Source: Bacteroidales bacterium
Lineage (GTDB): Bacteria; Bacteroidota; Bacteroidia; Bacteroidales; UBA932
Direction of reading: 5' to 3'
Assembly (NCBI GenBank): GCA_017465225.1
Contig: JAFTWQ010000018.1
Coordinates: 1 to 34,863, forward strand
Length of the DNA: 34,863 nucleotides
Position 1 is the first letter of the stretch. Each line of letters opens with the position of its first letter. Position numbers and translations under genes: made by a program. Shown here piece by piece: positions 8,822 through 25,878 of this stretch. The notes under the pieces are model-generated. The model was not told the origin of the DNA. It did not search any database and worked only from the letters and a program-made list of their open reading frames with translations.

Positions 8822-8831
8822 AATGCTCATG

Positions 8832-8953
8832 GGACAAATGTCCGGACATTTATCCGTTGAATGAAATTGTCAACGGATAAATAGGAAAATCGCCGTTGCA
8901 GCGGCCTGTAAACCCATATCCGACCAGAAAATTTATCTGATTTTTGATAAAAA
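8832..8953 (-). repeat. Diverged copy of the three-copy promoter/hairpin/palindrome element
   Basis: Read on the minus strand it holds, in order: TTTTTATCAAAAATCAGATAA plus ATTTTC, a hairpin GCCG-CTGCAA-CGGC followed by GATTTT, a 31-base palindrome (11-base arms TTATCCGTTGA and TCAACGGATAA, centre CAATTTCAT; 8880-8850), then TGTCCGGACATTTG with the box GACATTTG at 8842-8835. The palindrome is identical to those at 25298-25328 and 25825-25855; the rest is similar but diverged. It fills the space between the fabG terminator and comF. Confidence 0.75.
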
Positions 8954-8989
8954 TAATGTGTCCCGGACGGTTCGCACCGGCCGGGACAC
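8944..8989 (-). terminator. Rho-independent terminator of fabG
   Basis: On the minus strand GTGTCCCGGCCGG pairs with CCGTCCGGGACAC (8989-8958, one bulge) around a short loop, followed by ATTATTTTTATC. It begins 54 bases after the fabG stop. Confidence 0.8.
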
Positions 8990-9042
8990 GTTGGTTTAGG
9001 TTTTTGCAAATACGATGTGTGTTGTGTGTTAAGAATCTTTGT

Positions 9043-9789
9043 CTAGCAGTTCATTCCGCCACAGCAGTTTATCACCTGACCGGTGACATATCCTGCGAGG
9101 TCGCTTGCGAGGAAGAGGGCTACATTCGCCACATCTTCCGGCGTTCCTCCTCGGCGCATAGGGATCTGCTTCTCCCATTCCTGGCGCACGTTTTCAGGCA
9201 GCGCGCCTGTCATATCTGTCGCGATGAAGCCCGGTGCTATGCAGTTTGCACGGATGCCGCGAGGGCCCATCTCCTTGGCGATTGATTTGGTGAGGCCGAT
9301 AAGGCCGGCCTTCGATGCAGAATAGTTGCACTGTCCTGCATTTCCTGATACTCCCACTACAGACGACATGCTTATGATGCTTCCGCCTCTCTGTCTTGCC
9401 ATGATCGGGGTGCATGCATGGATGAAGTTGAATGCCGACTTGAGGTTTGTGTCGATCACAGCGTCCCACTGCGCCTCGTCCATCCTCATCATGAGTCCGT
9501 CCTTTGTGATGCCGGCATTGTTTACCAGCACATCTATCTTCCCGAACTCGGCCTTTACATCCTCTACAACCTTATGCGCGTCTTCGAAGGATGCGGCATC
9601 CGATGTATATGCCTTCGCACGTACGCCCATGGCCTCGATCTCCGCAACAAGCGACTGTGCCGCCTCATGCTGTGACCTGTATGTGAAGGCTACATCCGCG
9701 CCTTCCGAAGCATATTTCAAAGCTATTGCCCTTCCGATGCCTCGTGTGGCACCTGTGACGAGGGCTGTTTTGCCTGTAAGAAGTCCCAT
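9043..9789 (-). CDS. fabG: 3-oxoacyl-[acyl-carrier-protein] reductase FabG
   Basis: 248 residues. Short-chain dehydrogenase: NAD(P)-binding TGATRGIG at 12-19, NNAG at 90-93, catalytic Asn115, Ser142, Tyr156 and Lys160 (YSASK). The protein ends GGMNC, with the C-terminal sequence VTGQVINCCGGMN typical of FabG. It reduces 3-oxoacyl-ACP in each cycle of fatty acid elongation in the cytoplasm. Start ATG 9789 is preferred over an in-frame codon at 9822, because the promoter (9840-9810) overlaps that codon. Transcribed alone: own promoter and own terminator. Divergent from ahcY. Other SDR functions cannot be fully excluded. Confidence 0.9.
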   Translation of the reverse strand: MGLLTGKTALVTGATRGIGRAIALKYASEGADVAFTYRSQHEAAQSLVAEIEAMGVRAKAYTSDAASFEDAHKVVEDVKAEFGKIDVLVNNAGITKDGLMMRMDEAQWDAVIDTNLKSAFNFIHACTPIMARQRGGSIISMSSVVGVSGNAGQCNYSASKAGLIGLTKSIAKEMGPRGIRANCIAPGFIATDMTGALPENVRQEWEKQIPMRRGGTPEDVANVALFLASDLAGYVTGQVINCCGGMNC

Positions 9790-9809
9790 GTCCGTTCTGT
9801 TTGACTCTG

Positions 9810-9840
9810 CAAAAGTATCCAACTCTTTTCAATTGCCAAA
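9810..9840 (-). promoter_or_regulatory. Promoter of fabG
   Basis: TTTG (9840-9837), a 19-base spacer, then TACTTTTG (9817-9810): a full match to the Bacteroides promoter pattern. Transcription would start near 9805, about 15 bases before the ATG at 9789. Confidence 0.7.
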
Positions 9841-9950
9841 AAATATTCAGTCACAATTGGCTAAAAGGGGTTGATTGTGGTCAAATGTCGTCTTTTGTGG
9901 CTAAAAATCCCTATCTTTGCGGCCGATTCAATAGAAAAACAACAGAAAAC

Positions 9951-11204
9951 ATGGCAAGCGAAATCAGAAATCCACAGCTTTGGCAGGACGGCAGACTCAA
10001 GATAGAATGGGTAAGACACCATATGCCTCTCCTTAACGGACTCGAGGAAGAGTTCCGTCAGACCCTCCCTTTCAAGGGAAAGAAAGTCGCTCTTTCGGTT
10101 CATCTCGAAGCAAAGACCGCATATCTCTGTGAGGTGCTCGCGGCTGGCGGCGCCGAGATGTATGTGACCGGAAGCAACCCGCTTTCTACGCAGGATGATG
10201 TGGCTGCGGCTCTCGTCGAGGCTGGATTGAATGTGTTCGCTTGGTATGATGCTACTCCAGAGGAATATGAGGCCCATATCAGAAGAGTCCTCGAGGTGGG
10301 ACCGAACATCATCATCGATGACGGCGGCGACCTCGTGAATCTCATGCATACCGAATACACAGACCTCATCCCAGGTGTGATCGGAGGCTGCGAGGAGACC
10401 ACAACAGGCATCCTCAGGCTCATCCAGCTCAATAATGCAAGGGCTCTCAAGTTCCCGATGATGCTTGTGAACAATGCTGACTGCAAGCATCTCTTCGACA
10501 ATCGCTACGGCACAGGCCAGTCGGTATGGGACGGAATCAACCGCACTACCAACCTCATCGTTGCAGGCAAGAATGTCGTTGTAGCCGGTTACGGATGGTG
10601 CGGAAAGGGCGTTGCGATGCGTGCAAAGGGTCTTGGTGCGGAGGTCATCGTGACCGAAGTGGATCCGATCAAGGCCATGGAGGCTGTGATGGACGGATTC
10701 AAGGTGATGAAGATGGAGCAGGCTGCGGAGCTTGGTGACATCTTCGTGACCGTTACAGGTTGCGACGGAGTCATCGTGAAGGAGCATTTCCTGAAGATGA
10801 AGGACGGTGCTATCTGCTGCAATGCGGGCCATTTCGACTGCGAAGTGGATGTTGCTGGTCTTCGTGAGATTGCTGTAGATGTAAAGCCGGCAAGAAAGAA
10901 CATCACAGGCTATAAGCTTGCAAATGGCAATAAGGTATACATCATCGCGGAAGGCCGTCTTGTGAATCTTGCAGCCGGTGACGGACACCCTGCCGAGATC
11001 ATGGACATGTCATTCGCTATCCAGGCACTCAGCGCCAAGTATCTTGCCGAGAATGCAGAGACCATCTGCCGTGAACCTGGTCATATGGTTAACGATGTTC
11101 CGCTCGAAATCGATCAGGAAGTCGCTCGCCGCAAACTCTCATACTGGGGCTGCGAGATCGACACCCTCACCCCAGAACAGCATAGATACCTGTTCGGAGA
11201 ATAA
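9951..11204 (+). CDS. ahcY: Adenosylhomocysteinase (S-adenosylhomocysteine hydrolase)
   Basis: 417 residues. Hydrolyses S-adenosylhomocysteine to adenosine and homocysteine with tightly bound NAD, closing the methyl cycle. Visible signatures: VHLEAKTAYL near 50-59 (substrate site), GGCEETTTG near 149, KHLFDNRYGTGQS, and the NAD-binding VVVAGYGWCGKG. The C-terminal region has GDGHPAEIMDMSF and ends in the usual short tail YLFGE. It is the short form, lacking the ~40-residue insertion of many bacterial enzymes. ATG 9951 is 31 bases after a TATCTTTG -7 box (9912-9919); no TTTG at the right distance is seen. Its stop abuts the rodA stop with no space. Confidence 0.95.
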   Translation: MASEIRNPQLWQDGRLKIEWVRHHMPLLNGLEEEFRQTLPFKGKKVALSVHLEAKTAYLCEVLAAGGAEMYVTGSNPLSTQDDVAAALVEAGLNVFAWYDATPEEYEAHIRRVLEVGPNIIIDDGGDLVNLMHTEYTDLIPGVIGGCEETTTGILRLIQLNNARALKFPMMLVNNADCKHLFDNRYGTGQSVWDGINRTTNLIVAGKNVVVAGYGWCGKGVAMRAKGLGAEVIVTEVDPIKAMEAVMDGFKVMKMEQAAELGDIFVTVTGCDGVIVKEHFLKMKDGAICCNAGHFDCEVDVAGLREIAVDVKPARKNITGYKLANGNKVYIIAEGRLVNLAAGDGHPAEIMDMSFAIQALSAKYLAENAETICREPGHMVNDVPLEIDQEVARRKLSYWGCEIDTLTPEQHRYLFGE

Positions 11205-12731
11205 TTAGAAATACTTCTTCTCGTTGCGGTCCAATGCAATGAAGATGAACAGCAGGGCGGTGAAGCCCCAGAGGGACGAACCTCCGTAGCTGACGAACGG
11301 AAGCGGGATACCGATCACCGGCATCAGGCCGATGGTCATTCCTATATTGATGAAGAGGTGCATGAATATACAGCATGCCACGCAATAGCCGTATATTCGT
11401 GTGAATGCCTCTCGGCTTCGTTCGGCATTCCTGATGATCCTCCATATCAGGAAGACATAAAGCATGATCACGAAAGCCGATCCCATGAAGCCCCATTCCT
11501 CTCCGACTGTACAGAAAATGAAGTCGGTACTCTGCTCTGGAACGAAGCCGTATGTGGTCTGGGTGCCGTTGAGATAGCCTTTTCCGAAGAGTCCGCCCGA
11601 ACCGATCGCAATCATGGACTGATTCACGTTGTAACCGACTCCGGTCGGGTCTTCTTTCATACCCAGAAGCACTTCGATACGCTTTCTCTGATGGTCCTGA
11701 AGCACTTCGTTGAAGATGAAGTCGGCCGAGAACACCAGAACGATGCCTGCTATCATCGACAGCAGCGACAGGTGTGTGAAGATGCTTCTTTCACGATATC
11801 CCAGATAAGCTACAAACGGTGTCGTCAGTCCCAGTACGCCCAGCAGGATGTAGAGAGGCTTGACCTTCATTGTCCATGGCTCCGCTATTCCTGCGGCTGC
11901 GAAATCACCTTCCGCTGCGGCGAGGGCTTCAAGGCCTTCAGGGCCGATGATGCTGTTGGTCCATGCATTCATGATGGCCGGCACGCATGCCATCAATATT
12001 ATGAGAGGCACACATGCGATAAGCCAGAATCTGAATCTTCCCGAATAAAGGCAGATGCACAATGAAGCTACTGCTGCTATGACGAGGATCGCCGTGAAAG
12101 GGGATGCCGTCAGGGTCAGGATGAACGAAAGTATGGCCATTCCGACAAGGAATATGAGCCATCCGGATAGTCCTTCCCTGTAGAGCATGAATATGAATCC
12201 TACATACACGAGGGCCGAGCCGGTCTCGCTCTGGAGGACTATGATCAGCATCGGGAGAAGGATAATCAATGCGGTGATTATGAAGTCTTTAGCCCTGCCG
12301 ATCCTGTATCCTTGCTGGCTCATGAACGTAGCCAGCAGCAGGGACGTGGATATCTTTGATATCTCGGCCGGCTGGAACCGGACAGGTCCGAATGCGAACC
12401 ATGACCTTGAACCCTTTACCTCGATTCCAAGGAATATCACGGCTATCAGGAGGGCGACTACGAAAATGTATATCGGCACAGACAGACCTTCGTAGATACG
12501 GGGACTGAGCGCGAACAGAATGATCGCGGCTATGCAGAGGGCCGTCACTATCCATACAAACTGCTTACCGCTGCGGCTGTCGAAATCGAATATCGATGCC
12601 GGCTCGGAAGAGTGTATGGATGCATAGATGTTCGCCCATCCGATAAGCACCAGAAGCAGGTAACATATCACCAGCTTCCAGTCTATGCTCTTGGCGAGTC
12701 CTCTTCCTCTATGTCCTCCTGTATCTCTCAT
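11205..12731 (-). CDS. rodA: Rod shape-determining protein RodA (SEDS glycosyltransferase)
   Basis: 508 residues, with about ten hydrophobic segments typical of SEDS proteins. RodA polymerises lipid II into glycan strands during elongation, working with PBP2 in the inner membrane. Signatures: GSRSWFAFGPVRFQPAE near residues 110-127, QSETGSALVYVG, VGYNVNQSMIAIGSGGLFGKG, QSTDFIFCTVGEEWGF, and near the C-terminus GIPLPFVSYGGSS. A soluble insert near 255-275 (EGLEALAAAEGDFAAAGIAE) looks lineage-specific. Last gene of the mre operon; its ATG is six bases after the mrdA stop. It converges on ahcY without a gap or visible terminator. Confidence 0.95.
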   Translation of the reverse strand: MRDTGGHRGRGLAKSIDWKLVICYLLLVLIGWANIYASIHSSEPASIFDFDSRSGKQFVWIVTALCIAAIILFALSPRIYEGLSVPIYIFVVALLIAVIFLGIEVKGSRSWFAFGPVRFQPAEISKISTSLLLATFMSQQGYRIGRAKDFIITALIILLPMLIIVLQSETGSALVYVGFIFMLYREGLSGWLIFLVGMAILSFILTLTASPFTAILVIAAVASLCICLYSGRFRFWLIACVPLIILMACVPAIMNAWTNSIIGPEGLEALAAAEGDFAAAGIAEPWTMKVKPLYILLGVLGLTTPFVAYLGYRERSIFTHLSLLSMIAGIVLVFSADFIFNEVLQDHQRKRIEVLLGMKEDPTGVGYNVNQSMIAIGSGGLFGKGYLNGTQTTYGFVPEQSTDFIFCTVGEEWGFMGSAFVIMLYVFLIWRIIRNAERSREAFTRIYGYCVACCIFMHLFINIGMTIGLMPVIGIPLPFVSYGGSSLWGFTALLFIFIALDRNEKKYF

Positions 12732-12737
12732 TTCTGA

Positions 12738-14582
12738 TCATTTCTTTACTCTTACCCTGTCCATCAGGTCGCCCTGAAGGATTCTTGCTTCAAGATTCTT
12801 CCTGTCCTTGCTGATCTCTCCTGTAAGGTACATCTCTGTCAGGAGGGATGCGATAGGAGCCGCCCATGTGGCTCCGAATCCGCCGTTCTCGACATATGCG
12901 GCTACTGCGATCTTCGGGTTGTCCCTCGGAGCGAAGCAGATGAACACCGAATGGTCCGATCCATGCGGGTTCTGCGCCGTTCCTGTCTTTCCGCAGATGT
13001 CAAGTCCTTCCACGGCTGCAACGCTGGCCGTACCTCCCGAGCCGTATCCGCTGTTCACGGCCCTGTACATTCCTCCCACGACCTTCGGGAAATGAGTGGT
13101 GTCGACCATCGTGTAGTGCTTCTCCTTGTATTTAGGATCGATCGTCACATGCTCTGAGTCCTTGATGATATGAGGCGTGTAGTAGAAGCCTCGGTTGGCT
13201 ATCGTTGCGCAGAGGTTTGCAAGGTGGAGAGGCGTACAGCCGATCTCTCCCTGTCCGATGGAGAGTGAGATTACTGTCGTAGCCTTCCATCCGCCCTTGC
13301 GGTAATATCTGTTGTAGTATTTCGAGTCCGGAATGAAGCCTCCGAGCTCAGAAGGGAAGTCGCTGCCCAGCTTCTGTCCGAAGCCGAAGCTCATCACATA
13401 TTCCCTCCATTTGTCCAAAGCCTCGTCAATCTCCTTGTATTTCGGATTTTCGAGGAGGTCGCGCAGGATGTAGCAGTAATATGCGTTGCACGACATCATT
13501 ATCGACTCTTCAAAATTGATAGGAGATTTATGTGCATGGCATCCGAGCTTGCTCTTTCCGAAATGGTATCCCATGCTGCACGGGTACATCGTGTTCGGCG
13601 TGAGGACGCCTTCCTCGAGTCCGATGAGGCCGTTCACAAGCTTGAATACTGATCCCGGAGGATATGATGCCTGCACAGCTCTGTTGAACATAGGCTTGTA
13701 CGGATTGGTAGATATCTCCTTGTAATGCTGTCCGATGTCGGCGAGCATGTCCACATCGATTCCGGGGCTCGATACCATTGTCAGGATCTCTCCTGTGGAC
13801 GGTTCTATTGCCACGAGACTGCCGACCTTGTTCGCCATGAGCATCTGTCCGTAGTGCTGGAGCTCGGCGTCGATGGTCGTGGTGATGTCATTGCCAGGTA
13901 CGGCCTCCTTGTCGAATTCTCCGTCCCTGTATCTCGACTCTATCTTGTTGCGTGAGTTCCTTAGCCAGATGTTGTAGCCCTTCTCTCCGCGGAGCTCTTC
14001 CTCTCTAGCCGCCTCGATTCCGGTCTTGCCGGCGTAGTCTCCTGACTTGTATTCGTCAGGATGCTTCGCCAGAAAGGCTGCGTCCACTTCCGAAACATAG
14101 CCGAGGAGGTTTCCTCCGGCATTGAACGGATATTCGCGGATGCTTCGGGCCTGCCCTCTGAATCCCGGGAACTTGTATGCCACTTCGGCGAATTTCATGT
14201 ATGTCTCCGGAGGCAGCTGCTTGATCATGATTACGGACTGGTATCCGATGCGTCTGCGGTTCCTGTAGAATTCCTGCATCTTCTCACGGACGAACTCCGG
14301 CGTCACATCCAACACTTCGCAGAAGGCCAGTGTGTCGAAGTCCTCTACTTCCTTCGGCGTAACGAGCAGGTCATATGCGACCTTGTTTCCTACAAGGATG
14401 TTTCCGTTCCTGTCGTGGATGATGCCTCGGGTAGGGTAGATGGTAGAGTATACCATGGAGTTGTTTTCAGCGTCCATCTTGTACTTGTCGTCAAGAATCT
14501 GGATGCTGAAAAGTTTAGCAATCAGTATGGCTGCAGCCGTACAGAGGCCTATTATGAGCTTGTTCTCCCTGTTCAGTTTCAT
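12738..14582 (-). CDS. mrdA: Penicillin-binding protein 2 (transpeptidase of the elongasome)
   Basis: 614 residues. One N-terminal membrane anchor (about residues 8-28), a dimerisation/pedestal domain with RGIIHDRNGNILV (52-64), and a transpeptidase domain with all active-site motifs: SVFK at 311-314, SCN at 364-366 and KTG at 532-534. It cross-links new peptidoglycan in the periplasm as partner of RodA. The gene begins 9 bases after the mreD stop and ends 6 bases before the rodA ATG, so mreD-mrdA-rodA are translated from one message. Length is normal for the family. Confidence 0.95.
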   Translation of the reverse strand: MKLNRENKLIIGLCTAAAILIAKLFSIQILDDKYKMDAENNSMVYSTIYPTRGIIHDRNGNILVGNKVAYDLLVTPKEVEDFDTLAFCEVLDVTPEFVREKMQEFYRNRRRIGYQSVIMIKQLPPETYMKFAEVAYKFPGFRGQARSIREYPFNAGGNLLGYVSEVDAAFLAKHPDEYKSGDYAGKTGIEAAREEELRGEKGYNIWLRNSRNKIESRYRDGEFDKEAVPGNDITTTIDAELQHYGQMLMANKVGSLVAIEPSTGEILTMVSSPGIDVDMLADIGQHYKEISTNPYKPMFNRAVQASYPPGSVFKLVNGLIGLEEGVLTPNTMYPCSMGYHFGKSKLGCHAHKSPINFEESIMMSCNAYYCYILRDLLENPKYKEIDEALDKWREYVMSFGFGQKLGSDFPSELGGFIPDSKYYNRYYRKGGWKATTVISLSIGQGEIGCTPLHLANLCATIANRGFYYTPHIIKDSEHVTIDPKYKEKHYTMVDTTHFPKVVGGMYRAVNSGYGSGGTASVAAVEGLDICGKTGTAQNPHGSDHSVFICFAPRDNPKIAVAAYVENGGFGATWAAPIASLLTEMYLTGEISKDRKNLEARILQGDLMDRVRVKK

Positions 14583-14591
14583 CGTGGCCTC

Positions 14592-15107
14592 CTATTTTCT
14601 GTCATCAGGTGTGAGGAGATGGGTCACGAGAAGCGCCAGAATCCAGTTGCAGAGCAGAGAAGCTCCGAAATAGGCGAGATTGAACCACATCGGGCGTGTT
14701 CCTGCACCGTCAAGAATGACGTAGAACAGCAGGAATACCGCTATCGAGGACATCAGGGCTGCGGATACCTTTGCGGTTCCGTACTTGTTGACGGAGAAGC
14801 TGTCTCCGCGTGTGATCAGGTCTTCTCCGAAGAATATCCTGACGATCGATTTCCTTGCAAGGGCCACCGGAACGAGCGAAGCCGCATTGATTCCGATGAG
14901 TCCTTCGGAAAGCCAGTCTACTGCAAGTCCGCTTCCGAACGCAATGATCATGCAGGCTGCCGTGCTTACGCTCATAGGAATGCAGAATATCATGGCAGGA
15001 AGCAGCGACAGCGTGATGTACGGGCCGAGAGGCGAGAAATTGCACAGCACTATCTGGCATATAAGCAGAAGGCAGTACAGAAGCTTGAAATTGTTTCCGT
15101 TCTTCAT
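14592..15107 (-). CDS. mreD: Rod shape-determining protein MreD
   Basis: 171 residues, almost entirely hydrophobic with five or six membrane spans. Sequence similarity among MreD proteins is weak, so the call rests on position between mreC and mrdA, topology and length. It is a membrane part of the elongasome that binds MreC. Its ATG overlaps the mreC stop (TAATG at 15105-15109), a sign of translational coupling. Confidence 0.88.
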   Translation of the reverse strand: MKNGNNFKLLYCLLLICQIVLCNFSPLGPYITLSLLPAMIFCIPMSVSTAACMIIAFGSGLAVDWLSEGLIGINAASLVPVALARKSIVRIFFGEDLITRGDSFSVNKYGTAKVSAALMSSIAVFLLFYVILDGAGTRPMWFNLAYFGASLLCNWILALLVTHLLTPDDRK

Positions 15108-15928
15108 TATTCTTCCTCCTCCAATGCTTTAATCTCCTCCTTGCCGAGGTTGTCGACTATTGTCACGTAGCGAAGCGCCCCGTAATCCTCGAAGAGTGTG
15201 ACTTTGATTTCATATGTGGCTCCGTTGACGATCTTGGCTTCACCGACTGTTCCAAGCGGAATGTCAGGAGGGAAGATCGATGAGTATCCGCTGGTATAGA
15301 CGGTGTCGCCAGGCTGGAATTCCACATGATGGGGAATCTCCTTCAGGACAGCTCCGGCGCTGCTGTGTCCGTCCCAGCTCATAGGACCGACCGCGCCTTC
15401 CTTTCCAAGTCTGGCGCTGATGTTCATTTCATGGTTCTTGAATGACCTTGCGTACGAATAGTTGCCGCTGACTGCATCGATGACTCCGATCGCACCCTTT
15501 CCTGTGATGACGCCGGATCCCTTGGTGATGCCGTCCTCGCTTCCCTTGCCGATGATGATGTAGTTGTGCTGGGTGTTGTTGCTGATCTTGACGATTGTGG
15601 CCGGAATATATCTGAATTCACCTGCCACGCCGTCTTCAGGCGTGCCTTTCCCTGCCTTTTCATCTCCGAGTATCGCTTCGAGTTCCGCAAGACGTACCCT
15701 GAGGTCATGATTGTCCTGGGCGAGTGCCTCGTTTCTCTTCTTGAGAGAGAAATACTGCTTCACATTCTGGGATCCGCCCCAGAATGTGCCCATCACCGCA
15801 TGGGCGCCCTTGGAAATCCATACGTTCTGCAATGTTCCGTTGTTCCGGAGCATATTCAACGCAGCTACCTCCAGAATGATGAAGATAGCTGCATTGATCA
15901 GATGATATATGACGTTGCTCTTCTGCAA
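15107..15928 (-). CDS. mreC: Rod shape-determining protein MreC
   Basis: 273 residues: a short cytoplasmic start, one membrane span near residues 10-26, a coiled coil around 62-90 (LKKRNEALAQDNHDLRVRLA), then the two beta domains of MreC. Family features are ATIVKISNNTQHNYIIIGKG, GVITGKGAIGVID and a GDTVYTSGYSSIFPPDIPLG segment. MreC links cytoplasmic MreB to periplasmic PBP2 and activates it. It begins 4 bases after the mreB stop and overlaps mreD. The acidic tail EEIKALEEEE is ordinary for Bacteroidota members. Confidence 0.94.
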   Translation of the reverse strand: MQKSNVIYHLINAAIFIILEVAALNMLRNNGTLQNVWISKGAHAVMGTFWGGSQNVKQYFSLKKRNEALAQDNHDLRVRLAELEAILGDEKAGKGTPEDGVAGEFRYIPATIVKISNNTQHNYIIIGKGSEDGITKGSGVITGKGAIGVIDAVSGNYSYARSFKNHEMNISARLGKEGAVGPMSWDGHSSAGAVLKEIPHHVEFQPGDTVYTSGYSSIFPPDIPLGTVGEAKIVNGATYEIKVTLFEDYGALRYVTIVDNLGKEEIKALEEEE

Positions 15929-15932
15929 GGCC

Positions 15933-17772: not shown

Positions 17773-18294
17773 CTACTCCTTGTGCTCCTTCTTGTTCTTC
17801 TTGATGCTGGCAGAGAAGCTGGTGTTCTGGTATTCCTTTACCCATACCTGGCGCTCGATGGCCTGGTCGAGGGAAATCTGCGTCTCGGTCTGCTGTACAT
17901 ACGGGATCTTCTGTATCGTGTTCAGAAGTATCTGCATGAGGTGGTCATGGTCAAAGCAGAAGAGCTTGATCAGAAGGGCGTGCTTTCCGGTTACGAAATG
18001 ACACTCGACGATTTCGGAAATCTTCTTGAATGACTCGATCACTTCAGGGTATTTGTTGGCCTCTGAAAGTGATACGCTTACAAATGCACATACATTGAGT
18101 CCGAGAGCCTGCGGCTTTACGAGAAGACGTGATCCCGTGATGACTCCGTTTGCTTCCAATCTCTTGACTCTCTGATGGATAGCGGCACCTGAGACTCCGC
18201 ACTCACGTGCGATCTCGAGGAAAGGCATTCTTGCGTTCTTTACAAGGAACGAAAGAATCTTCTGGTCGATCTGATCAATCTGATAGTTTGACAT
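17773..18294 (-). CDS. Lrp/AsnC family transcriptional regulator
   Basis: 173 residues. The N-terminal winged HTH reads QIDQIDQKILSFLVKNAR...LEIARECGVSGAAIHQRVKRLEANGVITG (about 6-54), and an alpha-beta AsnC ligand domain (RAM) covers about 68-145. The Lys-rich tail (IKKNKKEHKE) is common in the Bacteroidota homologues. Such regulators form octamers that respond to amino acids. The upstream inverted repeats at 18315-18371 are candidate autoregulatory sites. It lies downstream of topA on the same strand, 93 bases away, and probably has its own promoter. The target regulon cannot be read here. Confidence 0.9.
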   Translation of the reverse strand: MSNYQIDQIDQKILSFLVKNARMPFLEIARECGVSGAAIHQRVKRLEANGVITGSRLLVKPQALGLNVCAFVSVSLSEANKYPEVIESFKKISEIVECHFVTGKHALLIKLFCFDHDHLMQILLNTIQKIPYVQQTETQISLDQAIERQVWVKEYQNTSFSASIKKNKKEHKE

Positions 18295-18314
18295 AGTCTT
18301 ACGATTTATAACAG

Positions 18315-18371
18315 TTTCCGACCGCTAATTTAATGACAAAATGTAAAATGTCAAAAAATAACGGTCGGAAA
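18315..18371 (-). promoter_or_regulatory. Nested inverted repeats in the lrp upstream region
   Basis: Outer arms TTTCCGACCG (18315-18324) and CGGTCGGAAA (18362-18371) are perfectly complementary. Inside lies TGACA-N10-TGTCA (18334-18353). A weak promoter (TTTG-N19-TAAATTAG on the minus strand) overlaps the inner repeat. There is no T-run, so an operator bound by the Lrp-like protein is more likely than a topA terminator. This is inference. Confidence 0.5.
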
Positions 18372-18387
18372 TTTACATTTATTAAGA

Positions 18388-20700
18388 TTACTTGCGTCTT
18401 TTCTTACGTCCTGTAGGTTCGGTCGATGCGACTATCTCCTTACACTTTTCTTCTGTAAGCGTTGCCGGGTCTGTGCCCTTCGGTATCTTGTAGTTGCTTC
18501 CGGCATGCTTGATGTACGGACCGTAACTTCCGTCAATCACCTGAATGTCGCTGTCCTTGTACTCCGCGATGATGCCTCCGGCGGTCTTGTTGAGGCTTTC
18601 CTCGATCAGCTTGACACATGTGTCGAGATCAACCTTCAGAGGATCGGTTCCGCGTGGGAGCGAAATGTTCTTGTCTCCGTACTTCAGGTATGGGCCGAAC
18701 CTGCCCTTTGTACATATGATGTCGATCCCGTTGTGCTGACCCACTGTACGTGGAAGCTCGAAAAGCTTCAATGCCTCTTCGAGGGTGATGCTTTCGATGA
18801 GCTGTCCCGGAGCAAGACTTGCGTACTGCCTGCTGTCTCCGTCTCCCTTCTGTACATATGGTCCGTACTGGCCGAAACGTGCGGTCAGAGGCTGTCCGTC
18901 CTTAGGGTCGACGCCGAGTTCGCGGCTCACATGGCTGTACTCCTTGTTGCTGAGGGTGTCCTGCACCTTCGTATGGAAAGGACCATAGAAGTCGCTGATC
19001 ACGCTGTTCCATGCAAGCTCGCCCTCTGCGATCTGGTCGAAATCCTTCTCCACGTTGGCGGTGAATCCATAGTCGAGGATGGTCTCGAAGTTCTTCACGA
19101 GGTAGTCGGTGACGATCATTCCGATGTCCTGCGGAAGGAGACGGCCCTTCTCCGCTCCGACGGTCTCGGTCTTTGCTGCGGCCTTGATGACTCCATTCTT
19201 GAGAGAAAGGTTGGTCACGTTGTGCTTTTCGCCCGGCTTGTCGCCCTTGACGATGTATCCGCGTCCCTTTGTGAGGGTCGAGATTGTAGGGGCATATGTG
19301 GATGGACGGCCGATGCCGAGCTCTTCGAGCTTCTTCACAAGTGTAGCCTCCGAGTAGCGGGCCGGCGCTGCCGTGAACTTGCATTCAGCGGTAATGCCCT
19401 CCTCATGCATGACTGCGCCTATGTTCATTTCCGGAAGGATCACCATCTCGTCATCCTGTGACGGTTCGTCGGTGCTCTCGATGTAGAGCTTGAGGAATCC
19501 GTCGAAAAGTACCTGGCTTGCCTGTACGTTGAACTTTTCCTCACCCTTGTCCGAAGCCACCTTGATGTCGGTCCTGAGGATGCGTGCATCCGCCATCTGG
19601 GATGCTACCGTACGCTTCCAGATAAGTTCGTAAAGCTTCTTCTCCTGTGGCGTTCCTTCGATTGTAGTGTTCTCTATGTAGGTAGGACGGATGGCTTCGT
19701 GGGCTTCCTGGGCTCCCTTGGCCTTTGTCCTGTACTGCCTTACCTTCGAGTACTCTTCTCCGAAGTTCTCTCCGATGTACTTCTTCGCAGTGTTGATGGC
19801 CAGTGACGAGAGGTTGGTCGAGTCGGTACGCATGTATGTGATGAGTCCGTGCTCATAGAGCCTCTGAGCGATGCTCATTGTCTGGCTTACCGAGAGCCTG
19901 AGCTTTCTTGCAGCCTCCTGCTGGAGAGTCGAGGTCGTGAACGGAGCCGCAGGGGTGCGGGTTCCCTCCTTCTTTTCGATGCTGCTTATTGTAAAGGTAG
20001 CTCCGATATGCCTTTCGAGGTACTCGCGGGCTGACTCTATGTCCGGGAACCTTCTGTCGAGGGTGGCCTTTACGAGGGTCTTGTCCGGAGTCCCTTCGGG
20101 ATGGAACAATGCATCTACCTTATAATATGCTTCATGATTGAATCCGATGATCTCCCTTTCGCGGTCAACGACGAGGCGGAGAGCTACCGACTGGACGCGT
20201 CCTGCCGAAAGCTTCGGCTGGATCTTTCTCCAGAGCACGGGAGATAGTTCGAAACCTACGAGGCGGTCGAGTACGCGGCGTGCCTGCTGCGCATTCACAA
20301 GGCTCATGTCTATGTCGCGTGGGTTTTCGATTGCGTTGAGGATCGCTGTCTTCGTGATTTCATGGAAAACTATACGTCTGGTGTTTTCTGCCTCAAGGCC
20401 GAGAGTCTCGAAAAGGTGCCATGAGATCGCCTCTCCCTCTCGGTCCTCATCGGATGCAAGCCACACGGTCTGCGCCTCTTTTGCAGCCTTCTTCAGCTCT
20501 GCCACCACTTTCTTCTTGTCTGCCGGAATCACATATTCCGGTCTGAATCCGTCCTTTACGTCGATGCTCAGTTCGCTGTCATGCAGATCGCGGATATGTC
20601 CGAAGCTTGATTTTACTATATAGTCGTTTCCAAGAAACTTCTGAATGGTTCCGGCCTTTGCCGGAGACTCTACGATTACAAGATTTTTTCCTTCCGTCAT
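18388..20700 (-). CDS. topA: DNA topoisomerase I (type IA)
   Basis: 770 residues from ATG 20700. TOPRIM domain: NLVIVESPAKAGTIQKFLG at 6-24 with the first Glu, and the acidic motif ASDEDREGEAIS at 82-93. SAGRVQSVALRLVVDRE at 165-181 and the nucleophile Tyr289 in GLITYMRTDSTNL complete the catalytic core. The C-terminus has repeated TopoI modules (RFGQYGPYVQKGDG, FGPYLKYGDKNISLPRG, YGPYIKHAG) and a basic tail GRKKRRK; zinc fingers are absent, as usual in Bacteroidota. It relaxes negative supercoils. The frame is open up to 20787, but the promoter at 20766-20734 and the purine-rich GAGGAGGA just ahead fix the start at 20700. Confidence 0.97.
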   Translation of the reverse strand: MTEGKNLVIVESPAKAGTIQKFLGNDYIVKSSFGHIRDLHDSELSIDVKDGFRPEYVIPADKKKVVAELKKAAKEAQTVWLASDEDREGEAISWHLFETLGLEAENTRRIVFHEITKTAILNAIENPRDIDMSLVNAQQARRVLDRLVGFELSPVLWRKIQPKLSAGRVQSVALRLVVDREREIIGFNHEAYYKVDALFHPEGTPDKTLVKATLDRRFPDIESAREYLERHIGATFTISSIEKKEGTRTPAAPFTTSTLQQEAARKLRLSVSQTMSIAQRLYEHGLITYMRTDSTNLSSLAINTAKKYIGENFGEEYSKVRQYRTKAKGAQEAHEAIRPTYIENTTIEGTPQEKKLYELIWKRTVASQMADARILRTDIKVASDKGEEKFNVQASQVLFDGFLKLYIESTDEPSQDDEMVILPEMNIGAVMHEEGITAECKFTAAPARYSEATLVKKLEELGIGRPSTYAPTISTLTKGRGYIVKGDKPGEKHNVTNLSLKNGVIKAAAKTETVGAEKGRLLPQDIGMIVTDYLVKNFETILDYGFTANVEKDFDQIAEGELAWNSVISDFYGPFHTKVQDTLSNKEYSHVSRELGVDPKDGQPLTARFGQYGPYVQKGDGDSRQYASLAPGQLIESITLEEALKLFELPRTVGQHNGIDIICTKGRFGPYLKYGDKNISLPRGTDPLKVDLDTCVKLIEESLNKTAGGIIAEYKDSDIQVIDGSYGPYIKHAGSNYKIPKGTDPATLTEEKCKEIVASTEPTGRKKRRK

Positions 20701-20733
20701 GCTCTGATCCTCCTCTTTTTCAAAAAGAAAGTG

Positions 20734-20766
20734 CAAAGTAAGCGACAAACCGAGCAATTTTCCAAA
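20734..20766 (-). promoter_or_regulatory. Promoter of topA
   Basis: TTTG (20766-20763), 21 bases, then TTACTTTG (20741-20734), one mismatch from TAnnTTTG. The start of transcription would be near 20729, about 29 bases before the ATG. Confidence 0.55.
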
Positions 20767-20859
20767 TTTTGTTGCTATTTTTGTCATCTTGTACTATGAC
20801 CATATCGGGAGTTACCTAAAGGTAACATTCCGGAAAAATTTTTAAAGAAAATTCTTGAT

Positions 20860-23214
20860 ATGAAGGATAATGTAAAGAAGAAGATCGTCAGATGGTTCTG
20901 GGGACTTTTCATCGCTGGAGTACTTGCCGTTGTCGGACTTCTGGCCGCGGTATGGGCATTTGCCGACATCCCGTCTTTTGAGGAACTCGAGAACCCTGAC
21001 AGCAAGCTTGCCACACAGGTCATTTCGTCAGACGGCGAGATCCTTACCACATTCCATATAGAGAACAGGTCGTTCGTGAACTATTCCGAGCTTTCTCCGA
21101 ATCTTGTGAATGCGGCAGTAGCAACGGAGGATGTGCGTTTCTACAATCATTCCGGCATCGACTTCAAGAGTCTCGGACGTGTGATCTTCAAGACCCTTCT
21201 CGGAGGAGACTCGAGCCAGGGAGGAGGTAGTACCATCACCCAGCAGCTTGCCAAGACCCTCTATCCGCGTGAGGATGTGAGCAGCAGGATCCCGGGAGTG
21301 TCGACCCTGAAGATGGTATGGATCAAGCTCAAGGAGTGGATCACGGCTGTGAAGCTTGAGCGCAACTACACGAAGGATGAGATCATGAACATGTACATGA
21401 ATCAGATCTTCTTCGGAAGCAACGCATATGGTATCAAGGCTGCGGCTCAGACTTTCTTCGGCAAGAATCCGATCGATCTTACAGTCGAGGAGAGCGCGAC
21501 GCTTGTCGGTATGGTCAACAAGCCTACAAGATACAACCCTGCGATCAATCCTGACAAGTCGCTTACAAGAAGAAACTTCGTCATCTCGCAGATGGAGAAG
21601 GCCGGTTTCATTTCCGAGCATGAGCGTGACTCCATCCAGCAGATTCCGATCACCCTTTCTTATCAGATCCAGGACCATAATGCCGGAATCGGCCCTTATT
21701 TCAGGGACATGCTCCGCCGTACCATGAACGCGAAGGAGCCTAAGCGCTCTTCATATAATCAGTATGAGGACTACAGGGTGGATTCGCTTCTCTGGGCGGA
21801 TGATCAGCTCTACGGCTGGCTCAACAAGAACAGGAAGGCAGACGGCACATCATACAATCTTGACAAGGACGGTCTCAGGATCTATACTACCATCGATTCA
21901 CGCATGCAGAGATATGCGGAGGAGGCGGTGGCCGAACATCTTGGAAAGGATCTTCAGAAGAGCTTCTGGAGGGATCTGAAATGGAAGACCAACAAGCCTT
22001 TCTCGAACGACATCGACCAGAAGACTATCGATCAGCTCATGAGGCAGGCAAGGCGCTGGAGCGACCGTTACCGCATCATGAAGAACAACGGCGCTTCCGA
22101 GTCGGAGATCCGCAAGAGCTTCGACGAGCCAGTGCAGATGAGGGTGTTCTCATGGAACAGGAAGGGGTACATCGATACCGTGATGACTCCGAACGACTCC
22201 ATCAGGTATTATAAGTCTCATCTCCGTGCGGCCTTCATGGCGATCGAGCCGGAGACAGGACATGTGAAGGCATATGTGGGAGGACCGAACTACCGTTACT
22301 TCAAGTATGACAATGTCCGTCAGGGCAAGCGTCAGGTGGGATCTACCATCAAGCCGTTCCTTTATACTCTTGCGATGCAGGAGGGCATGAGCCCATGCGA
22401 CAAGGTCGTGAATGTGCCGCAGACCTTCATCGTCAATGAGGACGAGACATGGACACCTGCAAGTACGGACAAGGACGAATGGATCGGCCAGACAGTTACA
22501 TTGAAGTGGGGACTCACCAAGAGCTCGAACAATATCTCGGCATACCTCATGAAGCAGTATGGCCCTGAAGCCATGGTGGAGATGATGCGTAAGATGGGTA
22601 TCGGATCATATCTCGACCCTGTTAATCCGCTTTGTGTGGGTGCGGCTGACATTACTGTATATGAGATGGTTGCGGCCTACAACACATTCCCTTCTAGGGG
22701 AGTATACGTGTCTCCTCTTTTCGTTACCAGAATCGAAGACAGCATGGGCAATGTGCTCGGAGAGTTCACAAACAAGAAGCATGAGGCGGTCAGCGAATAT
22801 ACAGCATTCCTGATGGCCAACCTCATGCAGGGTGTCGTGAACAGCGGTACCGGTGTAAGGCTCCGTGCAAAATATGGCCTCAAGGGAGAGATTGCCGGTA
22901 AGACAGGTACTACGAATGACCAGTCGGACGGATGGTTCATCGGCTATACGCCTTCGCTTACAGCGGGCGTGTGGGTCGGTGCTGAAGACCGTCAGGTGCA
23001 TTTCGAGTCGCTGTCTCTCGGTGGCGGTTCCAACATGGCCCTTCCTATCTGGGGACTTTTCATGCAGAAGTGCCGCAAGGACGCTTCTCTCAAGATGGAC
23101 GAAAACGAGACTTTCATGGCTCCTCCGGGCATTTCCCTCAATCTCAATTGTGACGGAAGTGATGCGGATGCGGAGATAAAGGCAGAAGAGAGTTCGGACT
23201 ATTTCTTTGAATAG
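20860..23214 (+). CDS. Class A penicillin-binding protein 1A
   Basis: 784 residues; bifunctional peptidoglycan synthase. One N-terminal membrane anchor (about 12-34). Glycosyltransferase (GT51) domain: catalytic Glu90 in ATEDVRFYNHSGID, then GGGSTITQQLAKTLY at 121-135. Transpeptidase domain: STIK at 495-498, SSN at 555-557 and KTG at 681-683. The cytoplasmic end KKKIVRW is basic, as expected. It works beside the Rod complex whose genes lie ~4 kb away. A TATTTTTG -7 box lies at 20776-20783, so topA and this gene have closely spaced divergent promoters. 44 bases separate it from ddl, within which lies a REP-like repeat. Confidence 0.95.
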   Translation: MKDNVKKKIVRWFWGLFIAGVLAVVGLLAAVWAFADIPSFEELENPDSKLATQVISSDGEILTTFHIENRSFVNYSELSPNLVNAAVATEDVRFYNHSGIDFKSLGRVIFKTLLGGDSSQGGGSTITQQLAKTLYPREDVSSRIPGVSTLKMVWIKLKEWITAVKLERNYTKDEIMNMYMNQIFFGSNAYGIKAAAQTFFGKNPIDLTVEESATLVGMVNKPTRYNPAINPDKSLTRRNFVISQMEKAGFISEHERDSIQQIPITLSYQIQDHNAGIGPYFRDMLRRTMNAKEPKRSSYNQYEDYRVDSLLWADDQLYGWLNKNRKADGTSYNLDKDGLRIYTTIDSRMQRYAEEAVAEHLGKDLQKSFWRDLKWKTNKPFSNDIDQKTIDQLMRQARRWSDRYRIMKNNGASESEIRKSFDEPVQMRVFSWNRKGYIDTVMTPNDSIRYYKSHLRAAFMAIEPETGHVKAYVGGPNYRYFKYDNVRQGKRQVGSTIKPFLYTLAMQEGMSPCDKVVNVPQTFIVNEDETWTPASTDKDEWIGQTVTLKWGLTKSSNNISAYLMKQYGPEAMVEMMRKMGIGSYLDPVNPLCVGAADITVYEMVAAYNTFPSRGVYVSPLFVTRIEDSMGNVLGEFTNKKHEAVSEYTAFLMANLMQGVVNSGTGVRLRAKYGLKGEIAGKTGTTNDQSDGWFIGYTPSLTAGVWVGAEDRQVHFESLSLGGGSNMALPIWGLFMQKCRKDASLKMDENETFMAPPGISLNLNCDGSDADAEIKAEESSDYFFE

Positions 23215-23219
23215 TCCGG

Positions 23220-23246
23220 TGTCATCCCGAGCTTGTCGAGGGATCT
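23220..23246. repeat. Interspersed palindromic repeat (TCATCCCGAGC type)
   Basis: The 27 bases from TGTCATCCCGAG to GAGGGATCT can fold (ATCCC with GGGAT, CGA with TCG, one bulge). This kind of extragenic palindrome is widespread and often gives a CHPELVEGS-like reading when translated. The element inside prmC (24869-24895) is of the same class, as both share TGTCATCCYGAGC and GGATCT. Confidence 0.65.
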
Positions 23247-23258
23247 GATTTAAGAAAA

Positions 23259-24269
23259 ATGATGAAGAATATTGCAGTTATATATGGCAGCGACTCTTCC
23301 GAGTGGGAGGTGTCGGTGCGAAGCGGCGAGTTTACCGCTTCACAGATTGATGGTGGAAAATATAATGTGTATGAGATCTTTGCCCGTTTCGGCAGATGGT
23401 CTCTGGCAGCATACAGGACAGCAGGGGCTGAAAGGGTGGCTATAGCAGAAGAACTGCGTCCCCAGATCGACAAGTCCGACTTCTCGGTTCTTCTTGAAGG
23501 AGAAAAGGTAAAGTTCGACTATGCATACATCATGCAGCATGGAACTCCGGGCGAGAACGGCCTGATGCAGGGATATCTCGAGATGCTGGGAGTGCCTCAC
23601 AGCGGATGCAACGCTTTCGTTTCGGCCATCACATTCGACAAGTTCTCATGCAAGAGCTATCTCAAGGATGTGGATTTCGTAAAATGTGCCGATGATATCT
23701 TCCTCCGTAAAGGCGAGAGCATCGAAGGACTTGCAGAGAAGGCTGTGGAGAAGCTCGGACTTCCTATGTTCGTGAAGCCTACCGACGGTGGCAGCAGCTT
23801 CGGTGTGACCAAGGTCAAGACTGCCGATGATTTCGGCAAGGCTGTGGACTATGCATTTTCGGAGGGTAACATGCTGATTGCGGAGGCGGCGATCGTCGGC
23901 CGTGAGCTTACATGTGCCGTATATTTCAATGGAAAGGAGAATGTGGCCCTGCCGGTCATCGAGATCATTACGGAGAACGAGTTCTTCGATTATGAGGCCA
24001 AGTATCAGGGTCATAGCCGCGAGGTATGTCCTGCGCAGATTCCGGATGCCCTCAGGGATGAGATCCAGGAGGTGTCGAAGAAGATTTATGCGCATCTGGG
24101 ATGCTCGGGACTTGTCCGTGTGGATTATATCAGTTCAGAGGACGGACTTTATTTCCTTGAGGTGAATACCATCCCTGGAATGACTTCGGCTTCGCTCGTG
24201 CCGCAGATGGTGCGCGCTTCCGGCATGTCCATGACTGACTTCCTCAATACTGTAATCGAAAATTCATAA
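23259..24269 (+). CDS. ddl: D-alanine-D-alanine ligase
   Basis: 336 residues. Joins two D-alanines with ATP, giving the end of the peptidoglycan stem peptide. ATP-grasp features: N-terminal NIAVIYGSDSSEWEVSVRSG (glycine-poor variant of the usual loop), MQHGTPGENGLMQGYLEMLG near 90-109, the ATP loop KPTDGGSSFGVTKV near 171-184, and the metal-binding EVNTIPGMT near 303. Two adjacent ATGs (23259 and 23262) start it. It lies 44 bases after the PBP1A gene and its stop overlaps the prmC start (TAATG), so it is co-translated with prmC. Confidence 0.94.
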   Translation: MMKNIAVIYGSDSSEWEVSVRSGEFTASQIDGGKYNVYEIFARFGRWSLAAYRTAGAERVAIAEELRPQIDKSDFSVLLEGEKVKFDYAYIMQHGTPGENGLMQGYLEMLGVPHSGCNAFVSAITFDKFSCKSYLKDVDFVKCADDIFLRKGESIEGLAEKAVEKLGLPMFVKPTDGGSSFGVTKVKTADDFGKAVDYAFSEGNMLIAEAAIVGRELTCAVYFNGKENVALPVIEIITENEFFDYEAKYQGHSREVCPAQIPDALRDEIQEVSKKIYAHLGCSGLVRVDYISSEDGLYFLEVNTIPGMTSASLVPQMVRASGMSMTDFLNTVIENS

Positions 24270-25213
24270 TGTTGCTCAAGGGCCTCATCAAGGAAGGTAC
24301 GGACATCATCTCATCTATGTATCCCGAAAGGGAGGCGAGGGAGATGGTGTTTGCTTATCTGGAGTCGGTGATAGGTACCAGAAGGCATACTCATATCATA
24401 GAACCGGAATATCAGGTCGACGATGAGGCCGCTTCGCAGGCAGTCGAGGCATTCAGGAGAATGGCTTCCGGTGAGCCTCTGCAGTATGTTACAGGCAAGG
24501 CTTATTTCTATGGCCGTGAGTTCAATGTGACTCCGGATGTCCTCATACCTCGTCCTGAGACTGAACTCCTTTGCAGGGCTGTCATTGATTTCGTTAAAAT
24601 GAAATCCGAGGTCAGAATACTGGATTTATGCACGGGAAGCGGGTGTATTGCGTGGACTTTGGCGTTGGAGATTCCGGGAGCGCAGGTGATGGCTGTTGAT
24701 ATTTCTGAAGGAGCACTGGCGGTTGCTTCCGCGCAGGATTTCGCTGATGAGATGTCTCGTACATGTGCCGTGGCTCCGGACTTCCTCAAAGCCGATGTCC
24801 TGTCATGTCATCCTGAGCCTTCTCTTTGTCATCCTGAGCCTTCTTTATGTCATCCTGAGCCTTCTCTTTGTCATCCTGAGCGAAGCGAAGGATCTTTTCC
24901 CAGCCATTTCGACATAATCGTCAGCAATCCTCCTTATGTAATGGACTCCGAGAAGGCCCTCATGAGAAAGAATGTCCTTGACCATGAGCCTCATCTGGCG
25001 CTCTTTGTGCCGGATGATGACCCCCTGCTATTCTATCGTGCGGTCGCGCAATGGGCTTTGCAGCTGCTCAAGCCGGGAGGTTTCGGAATTGTGGAAATCA
25101 ATGAGGCATTAGGTGAGGAGACAGCAGAGATATACCGCCGGTCTGGCTTCAACGATGTGACTATAATCAAGGACCTGAACGACAAAGATCGTTTTGTCTC
25201 TTTCAGAAGATGA
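24269..25213 (+). CDS. prmC: Peptide chain release factor N5-glutamine methyltransferase, with repeat insertion
   Basis: 314 residues. Methylates the Gln of the GGQ motif in release factors. N-terminal helical domain, then SAM motif I ILDLCTGSGCIAW at 117-129 and the catalytic NPPYV at 220-224. LIPRPETELL at 92-101 is a PrmC signature. Unusual: residues 179 to about 211, just before FDIIVSNPPYV, are an in-frame insertion made of three CHPEPSL heptads and a CHPERSEGS end, encoded by repeats at 24806-24895. Normal PrmC has only a short loop there (~280 residues in all). The gene overlaps ddl by one base and is followed by a terminator at 25262-25294. Confidence 0.92.
   Translation: MLLKGLIKEGTDIISSMYPEREAREMVFAYLESVIGTRRHTHIIEPEYQVDDEAASQAVEAFRRMASGEPLQYVTGKAYFYGREFNVTPDVLIPRPETELLCRAVIDFVKMKSEVRILDLCTGSGCIAWTLALEIPGAQVMAVDISEGALAVASAQDFADEMSRTCAVAPDFLKADVLSCHPEPSLCHPEPSLCHPEPSLCHPERSEGSFPSHFDIIVSNPPYVMDSEKALMRKNVLDHEPHLALFVPDDDPLLFYRAVAQWALQLLKPGGFGIVEINEALGEETAEIYRRSGFNDVTIIKDLNDKDRFVSFRR
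24806..24895 (+). repeat. Tandem 21-base repeats plus REP-like palindrome inside prmC
   Basis: Three 21-base units start at 24806, 24827 and 24848 (TGTCATCCTGAGCCTTCTCTT with small changes). A fourth partial unit at 24869 continues as GCGAAGCGAAGGATCT, so ATCCT can pair with AGGAT. The unit length is a multiple of three, so the prmC frame is kept. Confidence 0.9.
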
Positions 25214-25221
25214 TTTTTATC

Positions 25222-25351
25222 CCACTTTTTATAAAAGTCAAATAAATTTTCGAATGATTTTCGGCCTTTCACGCTTGTGGGAGGCCGTTTTTTTAATTTA
25301 TCCGTTGACAATTTCATTCAACGGATAATTGTCTTGACCTTTGCATCGGAT
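25222..25351 (+). repeat. 130-bp element, copy 1 (between prmC and XRE gene)
   Basis: 128 of 130 positions equal copy 2, exactly 527 bases downstream. It starts 9 bases after the prmC stop. Parts in order: AT-rich TATAAAAGTCAAATAAATTTTC, a terminator hairpin (25262-25294), the 31-base palindrome (25298-25328), and TTGTCTTGACCTTTGCATCGG with a promoter-like GACCTTTG box at 25336-25343. Confidence 0.92.
25262..25294 (+). terminator. Rho-independent terminator of prmC (inside repeat copy 1)
   Basis: CGGCCTTTCAC pairs with GTGGGAGGCCG (two G-T pairs) around a GCTT loop, followed by seven T residues. It should end the PBP1A-ddl-prmC message. Confidence 0.85.
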
Positions 25352-25432
25352 GGGTTAGGAACCCTTGTTTTTCTTTTTTTGTTTACATAATTGGAAACAT
25401 TTGTTATATTTGCGATGGAGGATAATCAAAAC

Positions 25433-25735
25433 ATGAAATTATATAAGTTAGAAACAGCTGAAGATCTTCTCATCGGCAAGAAAGGCAATCAGATACGTGA
25501 TGAATATGAATCAGATCTGGAGCAGTTCTATATAGGTGAGGCTATCAAGAAGGTAAGGATTTCGAAGAATCTTACTCAGGAGGAGCTAGGGGCCAGGGTA
25601 GGGGTTCAGAGGGCCCAGATTTCCAGAATAGAGAAAGGCCATAATATAACATTGGCCAATATGTCCAAGCTATTCAGGGCTATGAAGGTGACAGTGCGGA
25701 TTGAAATACCAGACTGCGGGACTTTCATTCTATGA
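25433..25735 (+). CDS. XRE-family HTH protein, orphan antitoxin-like
   Basis: 100 residues. The C-terminal half is an HTH_3 domain (IKKVRISKNLTQEELGARVGVQRAQISRIEKGHNITLANM). The N-terminal part, LETAEDLLIGKKGNQIRDEYESDLE, is the kind found in Bacteroidota HigA-like antitoxins, which normally follow a HigB toxin gene. No toxin gene lies next to it. Two upstream in-frame starts (25391 TTG and 25415 ATG) are less likely, because a TATATTTG -7 box lies at 25405-25412. The gene is flanked by the two 130-bp repeat copies. Whether it still binds DNA cannot be told, though the HTH is intact. Confidence 0.8.
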   Translation: MKLYKLETAEDLLIGKKGNQIRDEYESDLEQFYIGEAIKKVRISKNLTQEELGARVGVQRAQISRIEKGHNITLANMSKLFRAMKVTVRIEIPDCGTFIL

Positions 25736-25748
25736 TAAAGATTTTATT

Positions 25749-25878
25749 CCACTTTTTATAAAAGTCAAATAAATTTTCGAGTGATTTTCGGCCTTTCACG
25801 CTTGTGGGAGGCCGTTTTTTTAATTTATCCGTTGACAATTTCATTCAACGGATAATTGTCTGGACCTTTGCATCGGAT
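25749..25878 (+). repeat. 130-bp element, copy 2 (between XRE and lipoprotein gene)
   Basis: Same 130 bp as copy 1, starting 14 bases after the XRE stop. It differs at two positions: CGAGTGAT for CGAATGAT, and GTCTGGACC for GTCTTGACC. Contains a terminator (25789-25821), the palindrome (25825-25855) and the GACCTTTG box at 25863-25870, 22 bases before the lipoprotein ATG. Confidence 0.92.
25789..25821 (+). terminator. Rho-independent terminator of the XRE gene (inside repeat copy 2)
   Basis: Identical hairpin and T-run to the one at 25262-25294, 54 bases after the XRE stop. Confidence 0.85.

Follow-up and report, generated by a model that had tools for sequence, protein, structure and literature searches.

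A palindrome around the -33 box of Bacteroidales promoters, a putative operator with species-diverging spelling

Primary-sigma promoters of Bacteroidota follow the consensus TTTG at -33 and TAnnTTTG at -7. A stretch of 34,863 nucleotides from a Bacteroidales bacterium (assembly GCA_017465225.1, contig JAFTWQ010000018.1), referred to here as the window, carries three copies of a 31-base palindrome built around a -33 box of this kind. Palindromes are also described with the TnpA-REP transposase genes of Bacteroidetes, of which subclass 2.6 is reportedly flanked by atypical structures and is said to lack the GT[AG]G foot (PMC6006769), and motif divergence is described for the operators of the non-canonical Bacteroidetes LexA family (PMC8565304). 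Comparison of the palindrome across genomes suggests, with a probability of about 0.75, that it is a DNA operator enclosing the -33 element in promoters of the Bacteroidota type and serving a small-regulon regulator whose specificity diverges between species. A literature search over titles and the beginnings of abstracts returned no report of this operator.

The palindrome, TTATCCGTTGA-N9-TCAACGGATAA, was found with 0 mismatches at 8850-8880 (minus strand) in the promoter of a comF-like gene, at 25298-25328 (plus strand) after prmC and upstream of an XRE gene, and at 25825-25855 (plus strand) in the promoter of a lipoprotein gene, and no match occurred in 100 dinucleotide shuffles. The names prmC, deoC and comF were assigned by eye, the last with sub-threshold Pfam support. 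The first-pass annotation of the window had described the three elements as an AT-rich block, a hairpin with a T-run, an identical palindrome and, seven bases further on, a GACMTTTG box lying exactly 20 bases after a TTTC inside the palindrome, and every part of this description was recovered. It had also proposed looking for further copies. The assembly of the source genome, 2.35 Mb in size with a completeness of about 78%, contains a fourth exact copy elsewhere, flanked by deoC and a lipoprotein gene, and all four copies are followed by a gene on the same strand. Identity is 98% between the elements of the two prmC-side copies; the comF copy is 75% identical to the first of these over 118 bases and the fourth copy 76% over 136 bases. 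Together with one element from genome G024, the four can be aligned with no indel over the whole length from AT-rich block to -7 box.

The XRE-side and lipoprotein-side copies seem to have arisen by a single tandem duplication of the complete element, so that the window would hold two ancestral copies and not three. Because the prmC-lipoprotein locus of G024 has one element and no XRE gene, the XRE gene probably is a late arrival at this place. A mobile terminator-plus-promoter cassette inserted before genes, comparable to a miniature inverted-repeat transposable element (MITE), had been one of the initial proposals, and it would account for the nearly identical tandem copies around the XRE gene, for the G024 locus lacking that gene and for the likeness of the source-genome copies over about 118-136 bases. 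The duplication around the XRE gene is one local cassette-like event; the cassette as a general explanation was weighed against the distribution of the sites.

The exact 31-mer was absent from all other records of the genome-contig collection searched. With up to three mismatches it was present in 6 of 61 genomes, all from the source genus. A degenerate pattern gave 38 loci in public genomes, 35 of them in records titled Bacteroidales or Bacteroidia, and three in unrelated phyla, apparently by chance. Many of the records were ruminant-derived by title and one came from horse faeces. The best -7-like match stood at a constant offset in 30 of the 35 Bacteroidales or Bacteroidia loci (strand chosen by best score), including L051 and L078, in which the box is weak. 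Two of the five remaining loci had been scored on the wrong strand, one ran into the end of its contig, and the last two had CACTTCGC at the offset by eye. A composite pattern of both palindrome cores and CTTTGC, with the loop letters left out of the pattern, matched 76 of 160 genomes of the genus at up to two mismatches, against 1 match of the reversed control. At up to one mismatch it matched 8 of 199 family genomes, all 8 within the source genus.

For the analysis of geometry and spelling, 86 sites were used: 84 with up to two mismatches from 39 genomes, and the comF and deoC-side sites of the source genome. They derive from 30 loci of the composite-pattern search and 60 regions of multi-site genomes and are not all of the listed composite sites; sites with three mismatches were left out. 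Across this speciose genus the palindrome lies on promoters as TCCGTnnn-N9-nnnACGGA, with the -33 box at its centre, followed by nnnCTTTG and a start codon. The CCGT...ACGG core is nearly invariant across sites, yet it was demanded by the search pattern. The -33 box was found independently of the pattern because the composite search had left the loop letters free, and TTTG or TTTC stood at this place, 20 bases before nnnCTTTG, in 57 of the 86 sites. This frequency and the constant -7 offset in the degenerate-pattern loci support the early assignment to the Bacteroidota -33/-7 type. The median distance from CTTTGC to ATG was 22 bases for the core lipoprotein gene after prmC (lipoPrmC), 23 for the peptidase-like lipoprotein gene after deoC (lipoDeoC), 14 for RAYT-like genes (RAYT, REP-associated tyrosine transposase; REP, repetitive extragenic palindrome) and 23.5 for PD-(D/E)XK genes.

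An open frame started within 200 bases downstream at 81 of 84 sites. The palindrome thus recurs in relatives with the same geometry, and it is placed before genes and not at random, as the initial proposal of a regulon promoter had anticipated. The lipoPrmC gene itself was detected in 67 of 71 genomes at E 1e-20. When the promoters of the 30 best-scoring lipoPrmC loci, retrieved by protein alone, were scored for the dyad, 26 reached at least 15, compared with at most 14 in 90 in-gene windows and at most 15 in 30 shuffles, and in the loci inspected the element occupied one syntenic place. A MITE would be expected to have terminal repeats and varied insertion places; what was found were syntenic promoter sites with unlike far flanks, and terminal repeats were not searched for. 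No genome among the 160 had more than 7 composite matches, and no exact composite match was found in viral contigs. The mobile cassette is therefore largely refuted already and is a very unlikely explanation of the sites as a whole.

The spelling of the arms was specific to the genome. When the variable arm (five inner positions per arm) was compared, different genes within one genome had an identity of 0.891 (85 pairs, 18 genomes), while the same gene between genomes had 0.421 (670 pairs), and 500 label shuffles reached at most 0.512. Excluding the two pattern-restricted columns gave 0.884 within and 0.406 between genomes (shuffles up to 0.471), and excluding the source genome as well gave 0.875 and 0.411 (shuffles up to 0.549). 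The means of the 18 genomes ranged from 0.67 upward and averaged 0.885. One spelling precedes unlinked genes in G366 (CCGCGTAAA) and another in G094 (CCGTCTGT). Of the other parts of the element, the loop (0.842 within and 0.670 between genomes) and the arms of the AT-rich block (0.471 and 0.288) also followed the genome, the spacer from palindrome to box did so to a lesser degree (0.597 and 0.483) and the hairpin only slightly (0.510 and 0.439), and far-upstream sequence stayed at background (0.263 and 0.262). Selection on the palindrome had been suspected since the comF copy diverges outside it and is unchanged inside, and the other species support this. The comparison of arms, spacers and far flanks argues against a MITE.

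The half-sites vary independently, for example with TTG on the left and TAG on the right in L056, a pattern to be expected of contacts with a protein rather than of a hairpin. A hairpin acting in RNA was considered and rejected, as the arm positions are independent and transcription would be expected to start downstream of the dyad. Some genomes (G272, G230 and, at three of its four sites, G277) repeat their own asymmetry from locus to locus, and a simple homodimer does not account for this. The 11-base arms, the 9-base centre and an accessory dyad at a fixed distance also recall a site of site-specific recombination that incidentally bears a promoter and lets genes be exchanged as cassettes, and element-gene-element arrangements occur in the window, G063 and G032. 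In such a site the loop would be the presumed place of strand exchange, yet the loops are less alike within a genome than the arms. The promoter geometry is retained, moreover, and the duplication seen in the G063 pair is longer and extends into additional flanking sequence. We regard a recombination site as most improbable.

Averaged over the 86 sites, dyad pairing peaked at +13 (the palindrome, dyad 1), at -25.5 (the hairpin) and at -69.0 (an AT-rich dyad). The AT-rich block is thus itself a dyad (dyad 2), with its centre 82 bases upstream of the palindrome centre at many sites. In the window, with limits set by eye, it lies at 8929-8964 (minus strand, centre about 8947) in the comF copy, at 25215-25251 (plus strand, centre 25231) in the first prmC-side copy and at 25742-25778 (plus strand) in the second. 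Between the dyads there is a short hairpin in the comF copy (8892-8905, minus strand, by eye), and a hairpin with a T-run in the two prmC-side copies (25263-25294, probably the prmC terminator, and 25790-25821, both plus strand). The best hairpin lay exactly at -25.5 in 24 of 86 sites. Its mean z was -3.43 at the 44 lipoprotein sites (61% below -1.5), -0.63 at 17 RAYT sites, -1.18 at 10 PD-(D/E)XK sites and -1.88 at 15 others. A stable hairpin followed by a T-run after a gene is the structure of a terminator. Since high average stability is confined to sites with the end of prmC or deoC just upstream, and the hairpin is weaker elsewhere, it is mainly the terminator of these genes and not a fixed part of the element, as the first-pass annotation had taken it to be.

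The targets of the 86 sites comprised 28 lipoPrmC, 17 RAYT-like, 16 lipoDeoC and 10 PD-(D/E)XK genes, 13 others, one XRE gene and one comF gene. Among the further targets the Pfam families PDDEXK_2 (4 of 10 scanned proteins), ORF6N, Exo_endo_phos_3, RadC and DUF4160 were identified. Unrelated genes within one genome thus have a common operator-like site, in line with the earlier suggestion of an operator that controls unrelated genes, a DNA-uptake gene and an XRE gene among them; the agreement of the arms within genomes points the same way. The presence of radC and nuclease genes would fit an SOS operator recognised by a non-canonical LexA of the S24 family in Bacteroidetes, a family with known motif divergence. 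The motifs reported in PMC8565304 are short, however (GGA-N5-TCC and CTAA-N5-TTAG), so that the dyad differs, and recA, dinB and umuD were absent among the identified targets. An S24 match was missing in 5 of 20 carrier genomes (G112, G256, G272, G339 and G344, all at least 90% complete). A LexA operator is highly improbable.

Downstream of the deoC-side lipoprotein gene of the source genome (C56 of G000, L009:1299-7094) lie genes for a DUF3575 protein, a tetratricopeptide repeat protein, a fimbrilin of the FimA type and a small protein that matched no Pfam family, and the operator may drive a pilus operon at this place. A pilus regulon was rejected as a general explanation: DUF3575 follows the deoC-side lipoprotein gene in the source genome and in L076, but not generally. 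By tblastn neither DUF3575 nor the FimA-type operon was found in the other 17 lipoDeoC loci, several of which end soon after lipoDeoC. Directly after lipoPrmC, small HicB-like and AbrB/PIN-like genes, named by eye, were noticed in L220, L228 and L232 and at 27356-27763 of the window, as if this site collected toxin-antitoxin genes. The AlphaFold model of the lipoprotein was too poor to be used (predicted local distance difference test, pLDDT, 41.7).

With 17 of the 86 sites lying before RAYT-like genes, an origin from REPs has to be considered, in which RAYT-like HUH transposases recognise, copy or homogenise the palindromes and the promoter copies are exapted REPs. The window itself encodes such a gene just downstream of comF (6988-7920, minus strand; Y1_Tnp E=0.042, below the cut-off), possibly in one operon with it. 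Its protein is divergent, retains HxH and Tyr and has a C-terminal helical domain that is possibly helix-turn-helix; a low-confidence model (pLDDT 56.5) had ISDra2 TnpA as its first Foldseek matches (E=5.9e-4). HxH and Tyr were kept in all 8 aligned RAYT-like proteins. In the source genome a relative of this gene lies between arrays of dyads with the same skeleton, TCCGTAAA-N9-TTTACGGA. These dyads numbered 22 copies against 1 in the control, 20 of them in pairs or triplets with exact 51-base steps, and two triplets flank this relative, which is partial and contains a single TGA in frame. The arrays of G000 are located at C80:54935-56378, C80:96278-96404, C49:77647-77773, C53:41572-41647, C57:19591-19666, C31:280-355 and C81:84562-84637.

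The spelling, however, tracks the genome and not the RAYT subfamily: in G277 two subfamilies go with the same spelling, and across genomes a single subfamily goes with several. The palindrome copies preserve the promoter spacing, and the spacer to the box is far less shared than the arms. A REP system would be expected to have many intergenic copies away from promoters and a cognate RAYT in every carrier. The source genome holds 4 copies, all before genes. RAYT-like proteins were found in 335 of 400 genomes, and at 1e-15 no match was obtained in G013, G030 and G074 (96-97% complete), all of which have good composite sites, nor in G124 (98% complete), which has a good site at the lipoprotein promoter, although a more divergent RAYT is possible in these four. 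A RAYT as the sole cognate factor was rejected on account of these carriers. We consider the derivation of the promoter copies from REPs rather unlikely; the chief alternative is a possible shared origin of REP and promoter operator.

Several observations weigh against the operator. The sites compared for covariation were drawn by a pattern that fixes core and box, with 60 regions coming from multi-site genomes, and are a biased sample. The best upstream dyad stood exactly at -69.0 in just 26 of 86 sites. Four of the 30 lipoPrmC promoters fell under the threshold, three with a shifted arm by eye and one (G335) without a site, and 2 of the 26 passing did no more than equal the best shuffle. Three of 84 sites had no called frame within 200 bases, G259 at a contig end and G063 and G416 not cut, and some composite matches, among them the ones in G254 and G338, appear by eye to be fortuitous. 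In the source genome the likeness of copies reaches past the dyads (75-76%), and asymmetric positions and loops common to the sites of one genome would also result from copying by gene conversion. Finally, no regulator emerged from scans of carrier genomes for the S24, LytTR and RAYT-like families; LytTR was present in 19 of 20 carriers, with no match in G272. Assembly gaps weaken any absence of a gene from a single genome.

We still favour an operator. Two half-sites, TCCGTnnn and nnnACGGA, separated by about 19 bases, flank the TTTG/TTTC -33 box, with the nnnCTTTG -7 box at a fixed distance, and would be bound by a dimeric regulator. As the palindrome covers the -33 box, this regulator would most likely be a repressor, and dyad 2, 82 bases upstream, would probably assist it through cooperative or looped binding. 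We infer that a protein binds, that it is a single protein, that it represses and that dyad 2 cooperates; the geometry, the promoter position, the target list and the agreement within genomes are established by comparison of the sites. The small regulon would consist of lipoPrmC, the peptidase-like lipoprotein gene and HUH and PD-(D/E)XK nuclease-type genes, joined in the window by comF and the XRE gene, and the operators of a genome would change along as the specificity of the regulator diverges between species. More tentatively, a fast-diverging genus-wide regulator might respell the operators of a species, and incoming nuclease, HUH, toxin-antitoxin and DNA-uptake genes might join by gaining the spelling in use there; HUH proteins may be part of this homogenisation of operators and even among its agents.

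The remaining features of the window are as follows. The comF-like gene (8060-8830, minus strand) encodes a double zinc ribbon and a phosphoribosyltransferase domain, both below Pfam cut-offs. Its -7 box GACATTTG (8835-8842, minus strand) has the promoter geometry of the other sites. Because the first ATG comes just 4 bases past this box (8821-8842), either a leaderless transcript or initiation of translation at the next ATG would be expected. On the plus strand, the -7 box GACCTTTG lies at 25336-25343 in the first prmC-side copy and at 25863-25870 in the lipoprotein copy. The XRE gene between these copies (25415-25735; in its shorter form 25433-25735, HTH_3 E=1.1e-13) may be independent of the operator promoter, since a second -7-like box, TATATTTG, directly precedes its ATG (25405-25417). 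The lipoPrmC gene, the most constant target in the genus, occupies 25892-27109 on the plus strand. At 1089-1577 an apparently truncated open reading frame joins an XRE domain to the start of a cytosine-5 methyltransferase (DLFAGIGGF), named by eye.

In 18 genomes at least two target classes carry the site, and these genomes form a natural series of matched operator spellings within one genus. Co-evolution of regulator and regulon can be read directly from this series, which can be used to find the protein. HUH and PD-(D/E)XK genes, usually viewed as selfish, are here tied to core surface genes of gut Bacteroidales.

Compared with the Bacteroidota primary-sigma promoter, the sites have the same TTTG/TTTC, 20-base gap, nnnCTTTG and nearby ATG, but the -33 box sits inside a 31-base dyad, and in the -7 box GA, GT or TC often takes the place of TA. 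As in the descriptions of REP/RAYT systems and their TnpA-REP subclasses (PMC6006769, PMC3733652), HUH Y1 genes occur with palindromes of genome-specific spelling; different from these descriptions, the copies are few, lie on promoters of unrelated genes and occur in some genomes without a RAYT match. The non-canonical LexA regulons of Bacteroidetes, as outlined in PMC8565304, likewise have palindromic promoter operators and motifs diverging by lineage, and they differ in motif length and spacing, in the identified targets and in the S24 family, which gave no match in 5 of the 20 carriers scanned here. PD-(D/E)XK transposase-family genes such as the Rpn nucleases described as phage defence (PMC10327210) are frequent targets of the present element, whereas a shared lineage-specific operator for Rpn genes is not mentioned in the consulted part of that account.

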